Assembly: GCF_009362845.1 (NCBI RefSeq)
Contig: NZ_WHNW01000013.1
Coordinates: 1-54,365, forward strand
Length of the DNA stretch: 54,365 nucleotides
Reading direction: 5' to 3'
Source: Ostreibacterium oceani
GTDB lineage: Bacteria > Pseudomonadota > Gammaproteobacteria > Cardiobacteriales > Ostreibacteriaceae
In this document: piece by piece, positions 6,306 to 53,572 of the stretch
How positions within the stretch are numbered: the stretch's first letter is position 1
Layout: each line of letters starts with the position of its first letter
Made by a program: the position numbers and the translations under genes
The notes under the pieces: model-generated
What the model saw: the letters and a program-made list of their open reading frames with translations, nothing else
Told to the model about the DNA's origin: nothing
Databases searched by the model: none

Positions 6306-6845
6306 ATGCCTAACGAATCAACCGCAGATATAATAAAAACAGTGACAAACAAAGAGTCAAACTTAGTCATCAGACCATTTACGGCATCCGATACTGATGT
6401 CGTTATTTTAATTTGGGGCCAATGCGGATTAATTAAACCCTGGAACAACCCTCATTTGGATATTGTACGTAAATTATCCTTTCAACCAGACTGGTTCCTT
6501 GTTGGAGAACTATATGGAGAGGTCATTGCCACGGCAATGTTTGGCTGTGATGAACATAGAGGATGGTTAAATTACTTTGCTGTGACCCCCAAATTCCAAA
6601 AACTCGGTTACGGCAGCCAGCTCATGGCTTTTGGAGAAATGAAACTCATTGAAAAAGGGTGTCCAAAATTAAACTTACAAATCAGAGCAGATAATTCAAC
6701 AGCAGCAATTTTTTACAAAACCGTAGGCTACACCCAAGATACCGTCATCAGTCTAGGAAAGCGATTGATTAAAGACGAGGCGCTCGACAAACCGATTGAT
6801 AAAACGATTAATAAACCGATTAATAACGCACAGCAGAAAAACTAA
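6306..6845 (+). CDS. GNAT family N-acetyltransferase (YpeA-like)
   Basis: Transfers an acetyl group from acetyl-CoA to an unknown amine. After a ~20-residue N-terminal extension the fold begins at LVIRPFTASDTDVVILIWGQCGL, close to YpeA. The acetyl-CoA loop (motif A) is seen as YFAVTPKFQKLGYGSQLM and motif B as LQIRADNSTAAIFYKTVGYT. The C-terminal tail is a low-complexity KPIDKTINKPIN repeat not expected for the family. The next gene starts 3 bp after the stop, which suggests one transcript. Confidence 0.85.
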   Translation: MPNESTADIIKTVTNKESNLVIRPFTASDTDVVILIWGQCGLIKPWNNPHLDIVRKLSFQPDWFLVGELYGEVIATAMFGCDEHRGWLNYFAVTPKFQKLGYGSQLMAFGEMKLIEKGCPKLNLQIRADNSTAAIFYKTVGYTQDTVISLGKRLIKDEALDKPIDKTINKPINNAQQKN

Positions 6846-7667: not shown

Positions 7668-9892
7668 TTGCCGAAGTCTTACTCCCTATTCCAGTCAATC
7701 AATCGTTTGACTATCGCCTGCCTGAAAGTCAAACAGCAGTCGTTGGCCAACGTGTTTTGGTCGCCTTAGGCACGGGTAAAGCAAACAACACCCCGCGCCA
7801 GATTACGGGCATTATTGTGGCCATTAAAGAAACCAGCCCCTATCCTGATGCCTCGTTAAAACCCATACTCGCCCTACTCGATTCGTTTGCCATTGTCGAT
7901 CGGGCTTGGTTAGACTTTATTCAATTTACTGCGCGTTACTACGCTGCACCACTGGCTAAACTACTGATTAACGCATTGCCCAAACATATCCGCAGCGATA
8001 GCCCATTAACCTTACCCAAACTGCGTTATTATCAGCTTACCGAATCTGGTATTAGCGCCCATAAAACCGAGATACTTCCTACACGCGCAACCAAACAACG
8101 CGCCCTGCTGCGTTTTTTGCACGACCAAGATAAAATCCCCATCAATGAAGCGCTCGTGCGTGAACAGGGCTTTACCGCACACGACATAACGACCGCAGTA
8201 GACAAAGGCTATGCCACATACACGCTAACAAGCCCGTATCACAGCGAGGAAAATGTTTGTTCCCCAGACTATCAACTAACTGGCGAGCAACAGGCGCTGC
8301 TTGACGCCATCACGACTGCGCCTGACAACAAAACTCACCTTATTTATGGTGTCACTGGCTCGGGCAAAACTGAAATCTATTTACAACTCATTGAAAAAGC
8401 CATCAATACAGGTCAACAAGTCTTATTGCTAATCCCTGAAATTTCTCTGACACCACAGATGCTCGCACGGTTTCACGAACGCTTTGGCAATCGCGTGGCG
8501 GCGCTGCATTCGGGTTTGGGGGACAAGGTACGCGCTGATATTTGGTTGGCAGCCATGAATGGCGATTTGCCGATATTGATTGGCACGCGTTCGGCGATTT
8601 TCACGCCATTTCAACGACTGGGGCTCATTATCGTTGATGAAGAACACGATTTATCGTACAAACAACAAGAAGGCATTCCCTATCATGCACGAGATTTAGC
8701 GCGTTACCGCGCACACCAACACAATATTCCAATCGTGCTTGGCAGCGCGACCCCGAGCCTAGAGAGCCTCTACCAAGTCAAAAAAGGGCACTACCAACTA
8801 CACCAACTGGTCACCAGAGCGACACAAGCCACCCAACCCACCATCCATCTGATTGACCGCCGTGGCGATAAGCAAGCCAGTCATGCTGGTAGCAGTGCGA
8901 ATCTACCAATCGCAGAAATATTACTGCAAAAAATCCGCCAAACGCTACAACGCCAAGAACAGGCCTTGGTTTTTTTAAATCGCCGTGGTTTTTCGCCTGT
9001 TATGATGTGCCGCCATTGTGACTGGAAAAGCGAATGCCCAACGTGTGATGCCTACCAAACAGCGCATACACGCGCACGTCAACTGCATTGTCACCTATGC
9101 GGCTACATTTGCCCATTGCCCACTCAATGCCCACAATGCGGACAACGCGATTTGATTTTTGTCGGTCACGGCACGGAAAAACTAGAAACCCAATTACAGG
9201 CACAGTTTCCGCATCACCATGTCCTGCGCTTGGATCGAGACAAACAAACCACAACAAACCAATTACACGCCGCACTAGAACAAATCCACAACGGCGACGC
9301 GCACCTCATTGTCGGCACACAGCTTATTGTCAAAGGGCATCATTTCCCCAATGTTACGACGGTTTGTGTTGTCGATAGCGATCAAGCCTTATTTAGCAGT
9401 GATTTTCGCGCCGAGGAACGCTTGTTACAGCAGCTTACGCAAGTCGCAGGTCGCGCTGGTCGTGAATCGCAACAAAGCCATGTCTATATTCAGACCACTT
9501 TGCCCACGCATCCTGTATTCGCCGCACTGCAACAGCAAGACTACCTCACCTACGCCAATAACCTACTGGCAGAACGCGAAAAATACGAATTACCACCCCA
9601 TCACGCCATAACCATTGTCAAAGCCAGCGCCCTTGACGCAGCGCCCTTGATGCAGTTTTTAAGGGATGTCAAAGCACTCATTGATGACAACAGCCAAGCG
9701 CTGACAACACTAGGCCCAGCCCCTAGCCCCATTGAGCGGCTAAAAAACCGCTTCCAAGCACAGTTATTTATCAGCGCACCCAGCAGGATGGCGCTTCAGC
9801 GTGAGTTACCGTTAATCGAAAAAGCCATCACGCATCTCGATAAAAGCCGCCGTTTTCGCGCCGTCATTGACGTCGATGCCATGGAAAATTAA
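7664..9892 (+). CDS. priA: Primosomal protein N' (replication restart helicase PriA)
   Basis: 3'-5' helicase that recognises stalled forks and reloads the replisome. The 742 residues show the N-terminal DNA-binding domain (AEVLLPIPVNQSFDYRLP), then Walker A GVTGSGKTEIY near residue 230 and the DEEH box (IIVDEEHDLSYKQ). The cysteine cluster that binds two zincs follows (CRHCDWKSECPTCD, CHLCGYICPLPTQCPQCG), then helicase motifs VGTQLIVKGHHFPNVT and QVAGRAGR. The start is TTG at 7664, overlapping the sdhE stop as TTGA, with AAGGACAG upstream. No ATG gives the full N-terminus. Confidence 0.96.
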   Translation: MIAEVLLPIPVNQSFDYRLPESQTAVVGQRVLVALGTGKANNTPRQITGIIVAIKETSPYPDASLKPILALLDSFAIVDRAWLDFIQFTARYYAAPLAKLLINALPKHIRSDSPLTLPKLRYYQLTESGISAHKTEILPTRATKQRALLRFLHDQDKIPINEALVREQGFTAHDITTAVDKGYATYTLTSPYHSEENVCSPDYQLTGEQQALLDAITTAPDNKTHLIYGVTGSGKTEIYLQLIEKAINTGQQVLLLIPEISLTPQMLARFHERFGNRVAALHSGLGDKVRADIWLAAMNGDLPILIGTRSAIFTPFQRLGLIIVDEEHDLSYKQQEGIPYHARDLARYRAHQHNIPIVLGSATPSLESLYQVKKGHYQLHQLVTRATQATQPTIHLIDRRGDKQASHAGSSANLPIAEILLQKIRQTLQRQEQALVFLNRRGFSPVMMCRHCDWKSECPTCDAYQTAHTRARQLHCHLCGYICPLPTQCPQCGQRDLIFVGHGTEKLETQLQAQFPHHHVLRLDRDKQTTTNQLHAALEQIHNGDAHLIVGTQLIVKGHHFPNVTTVCVVDSDQALFSSDFRAEERLLQQLTQVAGRAGRESQQSHVYIQTTLPTHPVFAALQQQDYLTYANNLLAEREKYELPPHHAITIVKASALDAAPLMQFLRDVKALIDDNSQALTTLGPAPSPIERLKNRFQAQLFISAPSRMALQRELPLIEKAITHLDKSRRFRAVIDVDAMEN

Positions 9893-23841: not shown

Positions 23842-24405
23842 TTAGTGTAGTGGCAGGTGTTGTTGGGCGCTGTCGGTCTCGACCGTTACCCCTTGTAGCT
23901 CGGCCTTAATCATTTCCGTTAGTTTGGCCACTTCGTGGCCTGTGGCGAGATTTCTAAGGCGCATTAATTCTTTGAGTGCGCTTAGTTTGTCTTTTTTAAT
24001 CGCAAACCCTTGCGTCTCAAACTCATACAGCGCGGCCGCCCATTCGTTGTGCAGTAAAATCAATCGCTGCGCCGCTTCAATATTGCCATTGGCACTGATT
24101 CGGTCAGGATTAATTTGTGCAATGTAAAAATGGACTTTTTCAAGCAATATACAAGGAATTAAGGGGGTGATATCCCCACCTAAACCACTTGGTAAGCTAG
24201 CTTTCATTGCTTTGTATTGAAAAAATTCGGACTTATAACCGTTTGAAATCGTTTTTTTTGCGCTTCGCCAGTCTAAACCCACAAGGTCTGCTATTGGTTT
24301 AATTGGTATATATTTGCTCTGTCCATCAAATAATACGGGCAGTATTAACCCATGAAACTCAAAAAGCCCCACAATATTGACTGTTGTCTTGGTGTTTTCT
24401 GTCAT
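23842..24405 (-). CDS. Phage antirepressor N-terminal domain protein
   Basis: 187 residues. The N-terminus (FEFHGLILPVLFDGQSKYIPIKPIADLVGLDWRSAKKTI) is the P22 antirepressor N-terminal (P22_AR_N) pattern. The C-terminal half (LSALKELMRLRNLATGHEVAKLTEMI) is helical. Such proteins inactivate a repressor or bind operator DNA. It is located in the early operon directly after the primase gene. A second antirepressor-type gene (Bro-N) lies at 52202. Confidence 0.85.
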   Translation of the reverse strand: MTENTKTTVNIVGLFEFHGLILPVLFDGQSKYIPIKPIADLVGLDWRSAKKTISNGYKSEFFQYKAMKASLPSGLGGDITPLIPCILLEKVHFYIAQINPDRISANGNIEAAQRLILLHNEWAAALYEFETQGFAIKKDKLSALKELMRLRNLATGHEVAKLTEMIKAELQGVTVETDSAQQHLPLH

Positions 24406-24426: not shown

Positions 24427-26961
24427 TTAATTTTTTCGGCTGGTGTCAAAGCACCAGCATTTGACTGATTTTTTTGTCACATCACTGTAGACACCTTTAT
24501 TTTTGGCAATCAGTGGACGTGATTTCGCCCCTTCTAGCAAAGGCTTAAGCTCTAACATGGGTGGGATGTGCCAGCCGCGATGTCGACAGGCCGTCTCGTA
24601 TTGGTTTAAGTTGATTGCCATGATTTCAGGTTCAGCCTTGTGATCAATCATGTGCACGGGGTCAGAGCCTGCAAGGCTTTTGAGTTCATCAACTTTTTCA
24701 AAGAAATCCGCGACCAACGGGTGATCCTTGTTCATCGCTTTCTGACGTGTCTTTGCCATCTCGATAATGGCTGTTTCGATAACGCTTACTTGACTGTCGG
24801 TCAAATGGATTAAGTCTTTGATGGCATGAAGCAGTGCGATGAGCTGCGCGTGATTTTTCGCGATACGATAGAGTTTAATTTCGGGCATTGACCATAGCAT
24901 TTTGTCGTAGGTAGGAAATACCGCCCGATAGGTGCTGAGTATTTGTTTTTCAGCTTTTAAGCACTTGACAATGAAGTACGATAGCTGTTCGCAGGTCATC
25001 TGCTCCAAATACTGGGCGCTCGCCTGTGATTGGAGGTCATGATTGTCTAGCGTGAAAAACAGGTGACAAATGCGTTGCAAAATAGGCACACTCGCATTGA
25101 CTGGGTTATTTTGACCAATCACGATAGCCCCTTTAAAGGGCGGCTCGTAGGTATCGTTGCCGTTATTTTTCACGCCGCGCGTTGAATAGGCGTTGCCATT
25201 GTACAAATCCTTTAACTCGTCAAAGTCAAAGCCTTTTTGTTTGGCCGATTCACGTGACTGTCGGTCTGACTCCACCAGCACGACGGGCAAATTGGATACT
25301 TGATTAAAATTTCTGGCGCGCCCTGCAAACGATGACTTGGATGGGTCGTTTCCCTCGTGATCAGGTCGCCCGAACAGCCGCCACAAGAATTCAATCAACG
25401 TTGATTTCCCCGCACCCGCCTCGCCGACAATTTCTAAAAACGGATAGCTTTTGTTGGTTGCGCGGATTTGCTCGGCAAACAGCGAGCCCACCCAAAAAAC
25501 CAGCGCCACAATTCCTTTCGAGCCGTAGGCCTGCAAGACATGCGGCACCCAATTATCAATGTATTTTTCTTTGTCGGTTGTGATGTTTAATTTGTGTTTA
25601 GATGACGTTTTGATCGCCAAGCTGTCGACATTGAAATAATCTTCGGCGTTGAGCTCGTACATTTTTCCGCCCTTAAAGGCTAATTTGTCAAAGACATAGG
25701 TTTCATTTGCTTTGTCATAGCCGAGAAAGTCGATGGTGTTGACGGTTTTGATGTTTTTTGTTTGGAATCTGAGAATGCTATCAAGTTGGCTTGATGTGCC
25801 CGTGAACAGGGCGCCTGGTGCCACCGATAGCAACCGCTTTTTGAACTCGCTAGCGCTAGAGACGGCGGCGCCAGAAAACGGGGCTTTGACCACCGCACCG
25901 CTAGGCAGTGTCACGCGAAAATAATAGGCGCTTTGGTCTGTTACCTCGCTGCGCAAGAAATAGAGCGCCTGCGGGTCGCACGTCGCGATTTCGCTGATGG
26001 TGTGGTTGCCATCCTCGCTATCATCAAACTTAAACCAAAACAATTGGTTTTCAAAAGTAAAGGAAAATTGTTTCCATCCTTTTTGGGCTTGCATGAGCAG
26101 GCCTTTATCTTTGGCATTGTCGCACATCAACAATGCCCCGCGATAAAAGGCTTCATCAATGGCGGTATGATTGAGTTTTTCGTTTACCAGCAGATCATTC
26201 CAGTCGCACCCGCGCGGCGGGAGGGCCGCGACAGACTCAAATCCGAGTTGGCGCGATTCTTGAACGTGGTTTTTTGCGTATAGTCCTGCATTGTCGTTGT
26301 CAAGTGCCCAGACGAGGCGTGGCCGTTTTTCCCGTGTCAGCCACTCGGTGAGGGTGCGGTCGGGGAAGTGCCCAGCACTTATACTCGACACTGCGGTGAC
26401 CCCTATGTGCCAAAGTGCGATGGCGTCAAAAATGCCTTCGGTAATCCAAATCTCGTCCGCCTCGTCTAGGGACTGCCCGCCTGTCCAGCAGAGCCCTTGA
26501 TAAGAGCCGACAGCTCTGCATTTTTTACCAAAGCGCTCGGGCTGGTCGATGAAGCGCTCCCACCACGCGGTGTCGGTGATGTCAAAGCGCACCGTTGCCG
26601 TGCCGATGTTTTTCTGATGATCAAAGTAGCTGTCTTGTCGATACAGCCCAATCAGCCGTCCGATATCAAAGCTGCGCCCCTCCGACAAATACGCATCGGC
26701 GGTGGCGTTGGGGTTGTCTTCACAGATGGGGTGGTTTTTTGACCAGTCGGCGAAAATTTCGGGGAATAAGTCTTTGACGTGCGCGATGTAGGCGCATTGA
26801 TTGAGACGGTTACATTTAACGACGCGCGGGGTGACGGCGTGGGTGAATAATTCTTTTTTGCCGCAGCTCGGGCACTTGCCCTGCTGTAGCCATTCGCCGC
26901 GGTGTTTAAACTCGTATTCGGCGGTGAGGCGCGCAATCAATGTGTCGTTCAAGTTAGTCAT
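24427..26961 (-). CDS. P4-alpha-like primase-helicase
   Basis: About 844 residues with two enzymatic halves. The N-terminus holds a primase zinc site (CPSCGKKELF, CNRLNQC) and a TOPRIM domain (EIWITEGIFDAIALWHIGV; ALDNDNAG). The C-terminal helicase carries Walker A in VGEAGAGKSTLIEFLWRLFG and an acidic box (LPVVLVESD). The domain order matches the replication protein alpha of satellite P4, which also binds origin iterons. The last ~40 residues end VKCWCF, like the end of the Bro-N protein at 52202. The ATG at 26961 has GAGGG upstream and overlaps ogr by 8 bp. Confidence 0.9.
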   Translation of the reverse strand: MTNLNDTLIARLTAEYEFKHRGEWLQQGKCPSCGKKELFTHAVTPRVVKCNRLNQCAYIAHVKDLFPEIFADWSKNHPICEDNPNATADAYLSEGRSFDIGRLIGLYRQDSYFDHQKNIGTATVRFDITDTAWWERFIDQPERFGKKCRAVGSYQGLCWTGGQSLDEADEIWITEGIFDAIALWHIGVTAVSSISAGHFPDRTLTEWLTREKRPRLVWALDNDNAGLYAKNHVQESRQLGFESVAALPPRGCDWNDLLVNEKLNHTAIDEAFYRGALLMCDNAKDKGLLMQAQKGWKQFSFTFENQLFWFKFDDSEDGNHTISEIATCDPQALYFLRSEVTDQSAYYFRVTLPSGAVVKAPFSGAAVSSASEFKKRLLSVAPGALFTGTSSQLDSILRFQTKNIKTVNTIDFLGYDKANETYVFDKLAFKGGKMYELNAEDYFNVDSLAIKTSSKHKLNITTDKEKYIDNWVPHVLQAYGSKGIVALVFWVGSLFAEQIRATNKSYPFLEIVGEAGAGKSTLIEFLWRLFGRPDHEGNDPSKSSFAGRARNFNQVSNLPVVLVESDRQSRESAKQKGFDFDELKDLYNGNAYSTRGVKNNGNDTYEPPFKGAIVIGQNNPVNASVPILQRICHLFFTLDNHDLQSQASAQYLEQMTCEQLSYFIVKCLKAEKQILSTYRAVFPTYDKMLWSMPEIKLYRIAKNHAQLIALLHAIKDLIHLTDSQVSVIETAIIEMAKTRQKAMNKDHPLVADFFEKVDELKSLAGSDPVHMIDHKAEPEIMAINLNQYETACRHRGWHIPPMLELKPLLEGAKSRPLIAKNKGVYSDVTKKSVKCWCFDTSRKN

Positions 26962-28990: not shown

Positions 28991-29059
28991 GATACTCTCG
29001 CAGTTAGCTTGTTGATACGTTCAAAGTAATGTGAATAATATAGAGGATATTGTGAATTG
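28991..29059. promoter_or_regulatory. Divergent immunity/early control region
   Basis: 69 bp between the leftward early operon and the rightward repressor gene. A rightward promoter is visible as TTGATA (29012-29017), 18 bp, TAATAT (29036-29041). The motif TGTGAAT occurs twice 21 bp apart (29030-29037 region and 29051-29057), overlapping the -10 and the repressor start. These are candidate half-sites for the repressor or the small regulator. Confidence 0.55.
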
Positions 29060-29602
29060 ATGCAAGAAAAAAATGCAGAATTCTGTGAAATTTTAAAGGC
29101 AGAGAGAATTCGCCTTGGGCTTGGTCAGCTTAAATTTTCTGAATTATCAGGGGTTTCGGTTAACTCTCAGTCAAATTACGAAACAGGCAAAGCGATACCT
29201 AATGCCGAGTACTTATCAAGACTCGCAGACATAGGTGTTGATGTGCTTTTCTTACTGACAGGCAAGCGCAACGATTTGCACCTGTCCAACGAAGAGGCCT
29301 TATTGCTGTCGCTGTTTCGCGACGCGCCCGTGGGCGTGCAGCGCCACATCCTCGCGGGGCTATTGCAAGGCGGTGTACAATCGGGCGAGACCTCGCCCGC
29401 TAAAACACAGGGCAGCACATCGACTGTCGGCAACAACAGCCCTAATTCGGGCAATTATTCAGGTAATGCGGCAAGCGGAGACATTAATATCAATGCCGAG
29501 CGCCCGCGCGTCAGTAAGTCGAATAAATCAAGCAAATCGGTTAAGCAAACCGTGACAGGCGATGGCAATGTCACGATTGGTGGCAATGTAAAAAACAAGT
29601 AG
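29060..29602 (+). CDS. Prophage repressor (HTH_XRE), no LexA-type peptidase domain
   Basis: 180 residues. The N-terminal XRE helix-turn-helix is clear (LKAERIRLGLGQLKFSELSGVSVNSQSNYETGKAIPN), followed by ADIGVDVLFLLTGKR typical of P2/Mu-like repressors. The C-terminal ~80 residues are low complexity, rich in Asn, Gly, Ser and Lys. They end in VTGDGNVTIGGNVKNK, a glycine/asparagine beta-repeat that recurs at the start of the next protein. No Ser-Lys autocleavage domain is seen, so induction is likely through an antirepressor rather than RecA. ATG at 29060 chosen. Confidence 0.88.
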   Translation: MQEKNAEFCEILKAERIRLGLGQLKFSELSGVSVNSQSNYETGKAIPNAEYLSRLADIGVDVLFLLTGKRNDLHLSNEEALLLSLFRDAPVGVQRHILAGLLQGGVQSGETSPAKTQGSTSTVGNNSPNSGNYSGNAASGDININAERPRVSKSNKSSKSVKQTVTGDGNVTIGGNVKNK

Positions 29603-52201: not shown

Positions 52202-53011
52202 TCAGTGCAACAGGCGATGGCTAGAAAAAATCCAGCACTTAACGGTGCGGGGTTTGCCTGCGGCGTTTAGAGCGAAATCGCTACACACGGGTTTTTGCTG
52301 CAAAAAACGCGGTGAGAATGGTAAATAGCGAATTAACGCCTTGTGGCTTGGCATGTCAATTTCATGCTGTTGCGCGGCGGCGATTGCTTCGTTAAGATTG
52401 ATTGCATAGTAGTCACCGTTTGTGCTGTGATCAAGGACGACCCCCAGCGCAGCTAGTGCGCTAATCGCCTGGTGAAATCGACTGTCTATCTCAGCTGCCT
52501 TTTGGCGAACGGCAGGCGCAACGCCGCCCCACTCAAAATCAACCAGTGGCGCGATGGATAAGCCCAATGCCTGCGATACCGATTCCAGTGATTGATAAAT
52601 GGCAGTGCGCAATTGTTGGCAATCGGCTTTGCCCAACTCCTTGATCAATTTTAGGCGTAATTCGTGCAGGCGAATCCCCTCTGTCATCGACGGCAATCCA
52701 TAACCGCCTGTTTTACGGATGGTCGGGAGGACTTCTGATGTTACCCATTTTCTGAATTTTATTGCTTCTTTCTTTCTGCTTTTTAATACCAATGCGTACA
52801 TTCCTGATTCATTGACAATATTAGTCCTTCCTTGACGACCTAGCGAAACGCTAGACCGTTCTTCGGGCAACACATGCTTATTTAAGGCATCAGAAATGTT
52901 CGCATAGCCTAGTGAATCGCCTATGTCTTTAGCAATAAACCACGCGGTGTTTTCTATGCTAAGTGTGCGTATTAGGTGTTTATTAAAATCAAATGATTGG
53001 ATGTTAGTCAT
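52202..53011 (-). CDS. Bro-N domain antirepressor
   Basis: 269 residues. The N-terminal Bro-N domain (IRTLSIENTAWFIAKDIGDSLGYANISDALNKHVLPEERSSV, MYALVLKSRKKEAIKFRKWVTSEVLPTIRKTGGY) is complete. The C-terminal part is helical and ends GKPRTVKCWIF, close to the C-terminal end of the primase-helicase (KKSVKCWCF). Antirepressors of this type lift lysogeny. The gene overlaps its upstream neighbour by 8 bp (ATGACTAA), which suggests coupled translation, and lies downstream of a c4-like RNA. Confidence 0.9.
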   Translation of the reverse strand: MTNIQSFDFNKHLIRTLSIENTAWFIAKDIGDSLGYANISDALNKHVLPEERSSVSLGRQGRTNIVNESGMYALVLKSRKKEAIKFRKWVTSEVLPTIRKTGGYGLPSMTEGIRLHELRLKLIKELGKADCQQLRTAIYQSLESVSQALGLSIAPLVDFEWGGVAPAVRQKAAEIDSRFHQAISALAALGVVLDHSTNGDYYAINLNEAIAAAQQHEIDMPSHKALIRYLPFSPRFLQQKPVCSDFALNAAGKPRTVKCWIFSSHRLLH

Positions 53012-53249
53012 TGCCTACTCCTGTTAGTTGTTGTGTCTTGGATTGGGTTTCGAGGCGCTTTAATCGGACGATGACCCGACGCAGTTGATTGTTAGCCGAA
53101 TCAAGGACTAGCGCGGTGCGCGCAGGGTCAAGGTCGTCGGCGCAAGCAAATAACGCCGATAGCTCTTCGTATAGCTTTAGTGTGTTAATCAGTCCGTGAT
53201 AGTCGGTTAATGTTTCTTGGAAATCGCTATTGAAATTTGTCTGTGTCAT
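53004..53249 (-). CDS. Small hypothetical protein upstream of antirepressor
   Basis: 81 residues from the ATG at 53249, with AGGTG 6 bp upstream. TNFNSDFQETLTDYHGLINTLKLYEELSALFACADDLDPARTALVLDSANNQLRRVIVRLKRLE is helical and conserved-looking, a type seen beside Bro-N genes. In P1 the ant gene is preceded by a short coupled open reading frame (icd) under c4 control; this gene has the equivalent place. Confidence 0.75.
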   Translation of the reverse strand: MTQTNFNSDFQETLTDYHGLINTLKLYEELSALFACADDLDPARTALVLDSANNQLRRVIVRLKRLETQSKTQQLTGVGND

Positions 53250-53289
53250 TGTGTTCACCTGTATAGTTTTCAGAATGCCACACAAATGA

Positions 53290-53360
53290 GGGTGGCGGAC
53301 TCACTGACAGCTACAGGAACTGTGGGTACGCCTTACGGTTAGCACTCCTCATCCGCCATG
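53290..53360 (-). promoter_or_regulatory. Structured leader segment of the antirepressor operon
   Basis: Between the small RNA and the first gene the leader can form GGCGGA/TCCGCC pairing (53352-53357 with 53293-53298). Inside are an inner CACAG...CTGT stem and the CCTGTAG target. ATGAGG...CCTCAT offers an alternative pairing. Confidence 0.5.
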
Positions 53361-53397
53361 AAAAACTTGTGAAAATAACAAAGAATCAATTTGTTAG

Positions 53398-53452
53398 CAA
53401 TAAAAAAACGCCAGTCTTTCGGGGGCGGTTGACCGCCTGTAGTTTGTTCAGA
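53398..53452 (-). ncRNA. Candidate c4/CI-like antisense RNA
   Basis: On the minus strand a promoter TTGCTT (53482-53487), 17 bp, TAGTAT (53459-53464) gives a start near 53452. The transcript contains a perfect hairpin (GGCGGT CA ACCGCC) and ends in a CGCC...GGCG stem followed by seven T at ~53402. Its CTACAGG (53442 down to 53436) is complementary to CCTGTAG in the downstream leader (53317 down to 53311). This layout is that of c4 RNA of P1/P7 and CI RNA of P4, which pair with their own transcripts to stop expression of antirepressor genes. Confidence 0.6.
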
Positions 53453-53458
53453 CTTTCT

Positions 53459-53487
53459 ATACTACACAGATTGTGCGGGAAAAGCAA
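53459..53487 (-). promoter_or_regulatory. Promoter of the antirepressor leader/small RNA
   Basis: Minus-strand TTGCTT (53482-53487) and TAGTAT (53459-53464) with 17-bp spacing. It would drive both the small RNA and the antirepressor operon by read-through. Confidence 0.65.
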
Positions 53488-53572
53488 GGGGTGCTAATTT
53501 AGCCCCCTACACCCTCGCGCAAGGCAGCGGACAAAGCGTACAGGAGCTGCTCATCAAAAACTACTAACCAGT

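Follow-up and report, generated by a model that had tools for sequence, protein, structure and literature searches.

Organization of the locus

How is the antirepressor operon near the end of a 54,365-nt stretch of Ostreibacterium oceani DNA (contig NZ_WHNW01000013.1; the whole stretch is called the window here) controlled, and which of the RNA segments upstream of it is the regulator and which the target? An earlier reading made from the letters alone, the sequence-only reading, had proposed a c4/CI-like locus in which a hairpin RNA of about 55 nt represses a leader lying downstream of it. On the minus strand the order is a promoter-like site, a hairpin region of the leader that runs into seven Ts (T7), an untranslated stretch, an 81-aa ORF, and a Bro-N gene. 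The parts referred to below are as follows.

53459-53487, minus strand: promoter-like TTGCTT-17-TAGTAT, with 7 of 12 consensus bases, positioned as in the L262/L295 promoters
53436-53452, minus strand: upstream target a1-b1, TCTGAA-N5-TACAGG, a near-repeat of 53274-53258; its b1, CTACAGG (53442-53436), complements the loop of the C4-like RNA
53402-53437, minus strand: three-strand attenuator, with strand 1 GGCGG (53437-53433), strand 2 CCGCC (53428-53424), strand 3 GGCG (53412-53409), and T7 (53408-53402)
53288-53363, minus strand: candidate C4-like antisense RNA (full-length Rfam C4 alignment, 13.4 bits; R1, 14.4 bits; stem covariation with L295)
53358-53351 and 53300-53293, minus strand: closing stem of the C4-like RNA, UGGCGGAU/GUCCGCCA, enclosing two inner hairpins
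53311-53317, minus strand: b' loop CCTGTAG (CCUGUAG in RNA) of hairpin 2, complementary to b1 and to the Shine-Dalgarno region
53304-53307, minus strand: possible a' contact UCAG, pairing with CUGA of both a sites, weak at only 4 bp
53258-53274, minus strand: downstream target a2-b2, TCTGAA-N5-TACAGG, overlapping the Shine-Dalgarno sequence of the 81-aa ORF
53004-53249, minus strand: 81-aa ORF (ATG at 53249), in the position of P1 icd and Gifsy orf45
52202-53011, minus strand: Bro-N antirepressor, 269 aa, overlapping the 81-aa ORF by 8 nt

The coupled small gene and antirepressor of the earlier proposal were confirmed. Both genes are intact, and the 269-aa protein matched Pfam Bro-N (9.6e-23) and PHROG Ant (4.7e-44). 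A canonical C4 locus, L202, has the same operon layout as the window, with an 81-aa ORF, an 8-nt overlap, and Bro-N. No protein relative of the 81-aa ORF turned up among viral contigs or in phage records, and its comparison with ORFs beside canonical C4s gave nothing convincing (best E 3.9). DNA similarity searches of 32 genomes of the order and of phage records found no relative of the window DNA, the matches being the window itself or chance pieces. The XRE repressor that had been placed at 29060 is indeed present as an HTH_3 protein at 29057 (5.2e-6). Two further genes of the prophage drew our attention. The last approximately 100 residues of the Bro-N protein (52202-52500) resemble the C-terminus of the prophage's Toprim primase-like protein (24427-24700), with 27% over 111 residues and E 8e-6 in a one-against-one comparison; and a gene at 23842-24405 has a P22_AR_N-like domain (26.7 bits, cut-off 30.7) and is a possible second antirepressor.

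The promoter, previously described as well formed, is present and placed as in the relatives considered below, but with its 7 of 12 consensus bases it was absent from the listing of a promoter scan with a 9-of-12 threshold. The transcript presumably starts near 53453. Directly upstream of the promoter-like site, at 53488-53507, lies GGGGGCTAAATTAGCACCCC, which resembles the canonical a1 hairpin and contains TTAGCAC (53497-53491), a complement of GTGCTAA in the C4-like RNA. TTAGCAC was considered as an alternative a1 but discarded, since the likely start is downstream of it. There is a further minus-strand CCTGTA at 53539-53544, within CAGCTCCTGTACGC, upstream of the locus.

A sub-threshold C4 alignment in the presumed leader

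When the whole window and narrow stretches of it were scanned, no Rfam family reached its cut-off in the region. This included the C4 model (RF01695, cut-off 45 bits), the lack of a hit to which had been named beforehand as evidence against a C4 locus. Below the cut-off, C4 aligned over its full length (model 1-87) to 53363-53288 with 13.4 bits and E 2.6, that is, to the segment formerly taken for the target leader. In our reading the kind of locus (antisense RNA, coupled small ORF, antirepressor) had been recognized correctly but its polarity had not. The match came from a 106-base scan only, in which a snoRNA family scored as high, and scans of 851 and 281 bases at E≤10 did not list C4. We kept the C4 idea despite the Rfam result because the sub-threshold match was full length and at the right place and because a related viral locus exists. 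Our own model R1 was trained on 34 canonical C4 RNAs drawn from the same bacterial class. Of all places on either strand of the 54 kb it scored 53363-53288 highest (14.4 bits, E 0.22); a second window site was nearly level at 13.8 bits, and this ranking is suggestive and not decisive. R1 gave no match on seven loci, including L009 and L010, which Rfam assigns to sRNA-Xcc1, and the sRNA-Xcc1 model (RF02221) gave none in the window.

The C4-like RNA, upstream of the antirepressor operon, has a shortened closing stem and two inner hairpins. Its b' loop and the ribosome binding site of the first ORF are complementary over 6 nt (CCTGTA/TACAGG). A possible a' contact, UCAG/CUGA, has 4 bp only; a possible alternative a contact, GGAGUGCUA/UGGCAUUCU, has 9 bp, 3 of them G-U.

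The target is duplicated around the RNA

The 7-base complement of CTACAGG (53442-53436) and CCTGTAG (53317-53311) that formed part of the first proposal is present just as described, but is not significant alone, since a 7-mer able to pair with the 76-nt RNA turns up in 16.6% of 3000 shuffled leaders. It is in combination that the matches go beyond chance. A loop matching both the leader (at least 7 nt) and the Shine-Dalgarno region (at least 6 nt) was found in 0.21% of 10000 shuffles. The motif TCTGAA-N5-TACAGG stands both before the RNA (53452-53436) and after it (53274-53258); two 6-mers with equal spacing occurred in none of 2000 shuffles, and a looser repeat score, 13 of 17, was attained in 31 of 2000. 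The CCTGTAG loop sits between the two target copies and is complementary to both.

A viral locus with related RNAs

For a search of loci we made a model, R3, from the window RNA alone, and gave it 25 loci. It matched two units of L262/L295 (IMGVR_UViG_2910230000_000001), with 26.7 bits and E 1.5e-4 and with 21.8 bits and E 2.8e-3; it also matched the canonical C4 locus L156 (22.3 bits, E 0.002 among the 25 loci). L295 carries three tandem C4-like units, a (6585-6672), b (7801-7894), and c (8771-8857); the one without an R3 match has the same layout. These units are the closest RNA relatives found. Rfam had no match for any of the three. The leaders, RNAs, and ORF starts of L262/L295 align with those of the window, and the promoters are at the matching place relative to the upstream site. 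Units b and c lead directly into an ORF that begins after approximately 40 nt, as it does in the window, and the ORF of b encodes a 226-aa Bro-N protein. With R3, 62 further antirepressor loci yielded nothing, and 369 genomes nothing convincing, the matches being the window's own genome and one of E 0.08 that folds differently.

The compensatory changes that the sequence-only reading had proposed looking for were found in the closing stem. In the alignment of the window with L295a-c, 96.8% of the stem cells are paired and two pairs change on both sides, compared with 28-55% pairing when the strands are slid. The loops and targets differ between the window and L262/L295, and yet each b' matches its own b1: CCUGUAG/CUACAGG in the window and CUUGUUAG/CUAACAAG, CUCGUAA/UUACGAG, and CUGUGAA/UUCACAG in L295, where each loop has a 7-8 nt match to its own upstream site. 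The downstream match is 7-8 nt in unit c and 6 nt in the window; unit b, whose Shine-Dalgarno region reads CTAACAGG, has one of just 5 nt (its a contact) and no clear b2, and unit a has no b2 match adjacent to it.

Order of the elements in canonical C4 loci

C4 RNAs scoring above the cut-off occur at 10 places in 4 of the 32 genomes of the order and in 23 of 369 genomes of the class. The general order in the 37 C4 loci that we parsed is a leader with a target copy and a T-run, C4, a target on the Shine-Dalgarno sequence, and an ORF. At locus L226, the Rfam labels themselves give this order, with isrK at 1274-1348 and c4-a1b1 at 1261-1313 upstream of C4 at 1356-1443. Because of the canonical order and these labels, we assign the segment first called the antisense RNA to the upstream target and terminator, and that first called the leader to C4. 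A strict signature, consisting of a target, a loop complement, and a second target together with a T-run, was present at 25 of 31 canonical C4 loci, 20 of them with at least 7 nt; among 310 shuffles none had it at 7 nt or more and 5 had it at 6. The window has this signature at 6 nt, a length reached or exceeded in 38 of 830 shuffles of its 83-region set. Scanning viral contigs for the pattern of C4 ends gave mostly chance matches. One related genome (G005) has six C4 matches in all, four of them canonical C4 RNAs (L049, L051, L053, and L054) within approximately 1.4 kb of contig C9 (1700-3092).

The upstream target overlaps a predicted attenuator

Of the hairpin RNA with terminator that had been proposed as the repressor (about 53453-53402), the hairpin region and the T7 at 53408-53402 stand, but the RNA folds no better than shuffled sequences (58-nt upstream RNA, z −0.84; 43 of 200 shuffles at least as good), and no minus-strand terminator was flagged by the scan in the T7 region. 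The upstream leader fits the isrK/c4-a1b1 layout, in which a target copy and then hairpins and a T-run lie 5' of a C4-like RNA; Rfam isrK (RF01394) and c4-a1b1 (RF03163) found nothing within 53385-53480 at E≤10, and R2, a sequence model built from the upstream module, gave no useful information (6.6 bits, rank seventh).

Within this leader CCGCC can pair with GGCGG or, alternatively, with the GGCG preceding T7. The sequence-only reading had taken CCGCC and GGCGG for a second contact between RNA and target; we rejected this contact, since the letters pair inside the leader hairpin, and no counterpart of it was seen in the relatives. GGCGG, strand 1 of the attenuator, has its first GG in common with the last two bases of b1. 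A three-strand attenuator was found in 35 of 58 leaders, compared with 5 of 585 shuffled leaders in which the T-run was retained; by class these are 16 of 36 for C4, 16 of 18 for sRNA-Xcc1, and 2 of 3 for L295, plus the window. In 25 of the 34 leaders (of the 58 in all) with both elements found, the window among them, b1 abuts or overlaps strand 1. Constrained folding of the window leader gave a predicted terminator pairing of 0.38 with b1 blocked, against 0.01 without the block, and the value rose likewise in seven of seven relatives tried; with a1 and b1 both blocked, the predicted value for the window was only 0.23.

sRNA-Xcc1 loci have the same parts

When 19 loci upstream of the nearest antirepressor relatives, partly picked by the signature, were given to Rfam, 11 were assigned to sRNA-Xcc1, 3 to C4, and 1 to c4-2. 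At L009 (1874-1958), L010 (2366-2451), L285 (1366-1450), and others, sRNA-Xcc1 precedes a Bro-N or other antirepressor-like gene, with target copies on both sides. In 15 of 19 distinct sRNA-Xcc1 copies the loop matches both flanks over at least 6 nt, usually at the GGAG before the ATG, a criterion that is loose because 354 of 1900 shuffles pass it. The sRNA-Xcc1 leaders have the same attenuator and target copies as the window, and sRNA-Xcc1 looks like a C4-type RNA; the Rfam output gives no clan for RF02221. In the available text of the paper that named it and of a 2025 Xylella paper, sRNA-Xcc1 is treated as a bacterial sRNA, in the latter with a role in virulence. Our literature search found no paper linking it to antirepressors, which does not prove that none exists. 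An orphan family discussed, in the text available, as a virulence sRNA gains a likely origin in phage immunity.

Proposed mechanism and alternatives

We consider it probable that the antirepressor operon here regulates itself through an antisense RNA of the C4/CI type. Judged by its sequence, the locus would be a diverged variant of such control, with the roles reversed relative to the first proposal. The order of the elements, their complementarities, the duplicated target, and the bases common to b1 and strand 1 can be read off the DNA directly; we infer from them transcription, processing, action in trans, termination, and immunity, as follows. A single transcript from approximately 53453 would carry a1-b1 over the attenuator, the C4-like RNA, a2-b2 on the Shine-Dalgarno sequence, the 81-aa ORF, and Bro-N, and the C4-like RNA would probably be excised from the transcript that reads through. 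In the lysogen, the CCUGUAG loop would pair with TACAGG and mask the ribosome site of the 81-aa ORF, and the translationally coupled antirepressor would therefore not be made. The same loop would pair with the upstream CUACAGG, taking the GG with which anti-terminator strand 1 begins; strand 2, thus released, would pair with strand 3, and termination at T7 would be favored. The short terminated RNA would be a side product, or serve as a decoy for C4, and would not be the repressor.

The first proposal, with the 55-nt hairpin RNA as the C4-like repressor and the leader downstream as its target, has in its favor the 7-base complement and a short RNA with a T-run. We nevertheless regard it as highly improbable: C4 and the L295 units align with the downstream element and not with the hairpin, complementarity to the Shine-Dalgarno sequence is found in the loop of the downstream element only, the hairpin has the same letters as the Shine-Dalgarno region and is in that sense a copy of the target, and the order in the relatives is the reverse. 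Loss of function, with the short stem as its mark and the matches as relics of a decayed C4 locus, would fit the sub-threshold C4 score, the missing upper stem, and the b2 match of 6 nt; we think this improbable, given that the ORF and antirepressor are intact, that the duplicated target and the attenuator geometry have been retained, and that in a related viral element this layout recurs with different loops.

A stronger competitor, though still rather unlikely in our estimate, is activation of the IsrK type, in which the short terminated upstream RNA would mimic the Shine-Dalgarno sequence, titrate or unfold the C4-like part of the long mRNA, and so switch translation of the ORF and antirepressor on. 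Activation of orf45-anrP by the short form of IsrK is described for Gifsy-1 in the portion available of PMC4825925, and the parts of the window follow one another in the same order. Against this, the window has no Rfam isrK match, its upstream RNA folds weakly, and repression is, in the sources as available, the better documented outcome for C4 and CI.

Returning to repression by the C4-like RNA, we suggest tentatively, at somewhat short of even confidence, that C4, sRNA-Xcc1, and the window/L295 class may share one switch, in which the loop that matches the Shine-Dalgarno sequence has a second partner, a copy of this site that abuts or overlaps the 5' arm of an anti-terminator where the same transcript begins. 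A single loop would in this way control how its own operon terminates as well as whether the antirepressor is translated; the window class would be a form unrecognized by Rfam. With the window locus, RNA immunity of the C4/CI type would reach beyond the covariance models used to find such RNAs, and the signature of target, loop complement, target, and T-run offers a way of finding these loci without a model. The conserved upstream target abutting or overlapping the anti-terminator arm makes a specific prediction of self-termination that is open to mutation.

Comparison with known systems

The window shares with C4 of P1 and P7 (RF01695) and c4-a1b1 (RF03163) the order leader target, C4, ribosome binding site target, small ORF, antirepressor. 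Also common to the P1/P7 C4 and the window RNA are a three-stem RNA, a loop complementary to the Shine-Dalgarno sequence, and ends of the form UUUnAUGGCGG...CCGCCACCCU. The window RNA differs from C4 in that it lacks the canonical a' motif and, in the stem, the upper half, and its leader differs in having no c4-a1b1 match. According to the part of PMC5320573 available, C4 is processed by RNase P to an RNA of approximately 77 nt. In Gifsy-1, as the accessible part of PMC4825925 describes it, IsrK is a short terminated RNA upstream of an antirepressor operon, and the read-through mRNA carries a stable RNA, STnc1160. The order isrK, STnc1160, orf45, anrP is that of the parts in the window, which differs in lacking an isrK match and whose function is a prediction. 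The same source, so far as available, has the CI RNA of P4 promoting termination through upstream and downstream sites; by that description, P4 CI with seqA and seqC is like the circuit proposed for the window in having an antisense RNA processed from its own leader, flanking target copies, and premature termination. P4 CI governs replication genes, whereas the RNA of the window would govern an antirepressor. By analogy, the upstream element of the window is the likely counterpart of P4 seqA, Gifsy-1 IsrK, and c4-a1b1.
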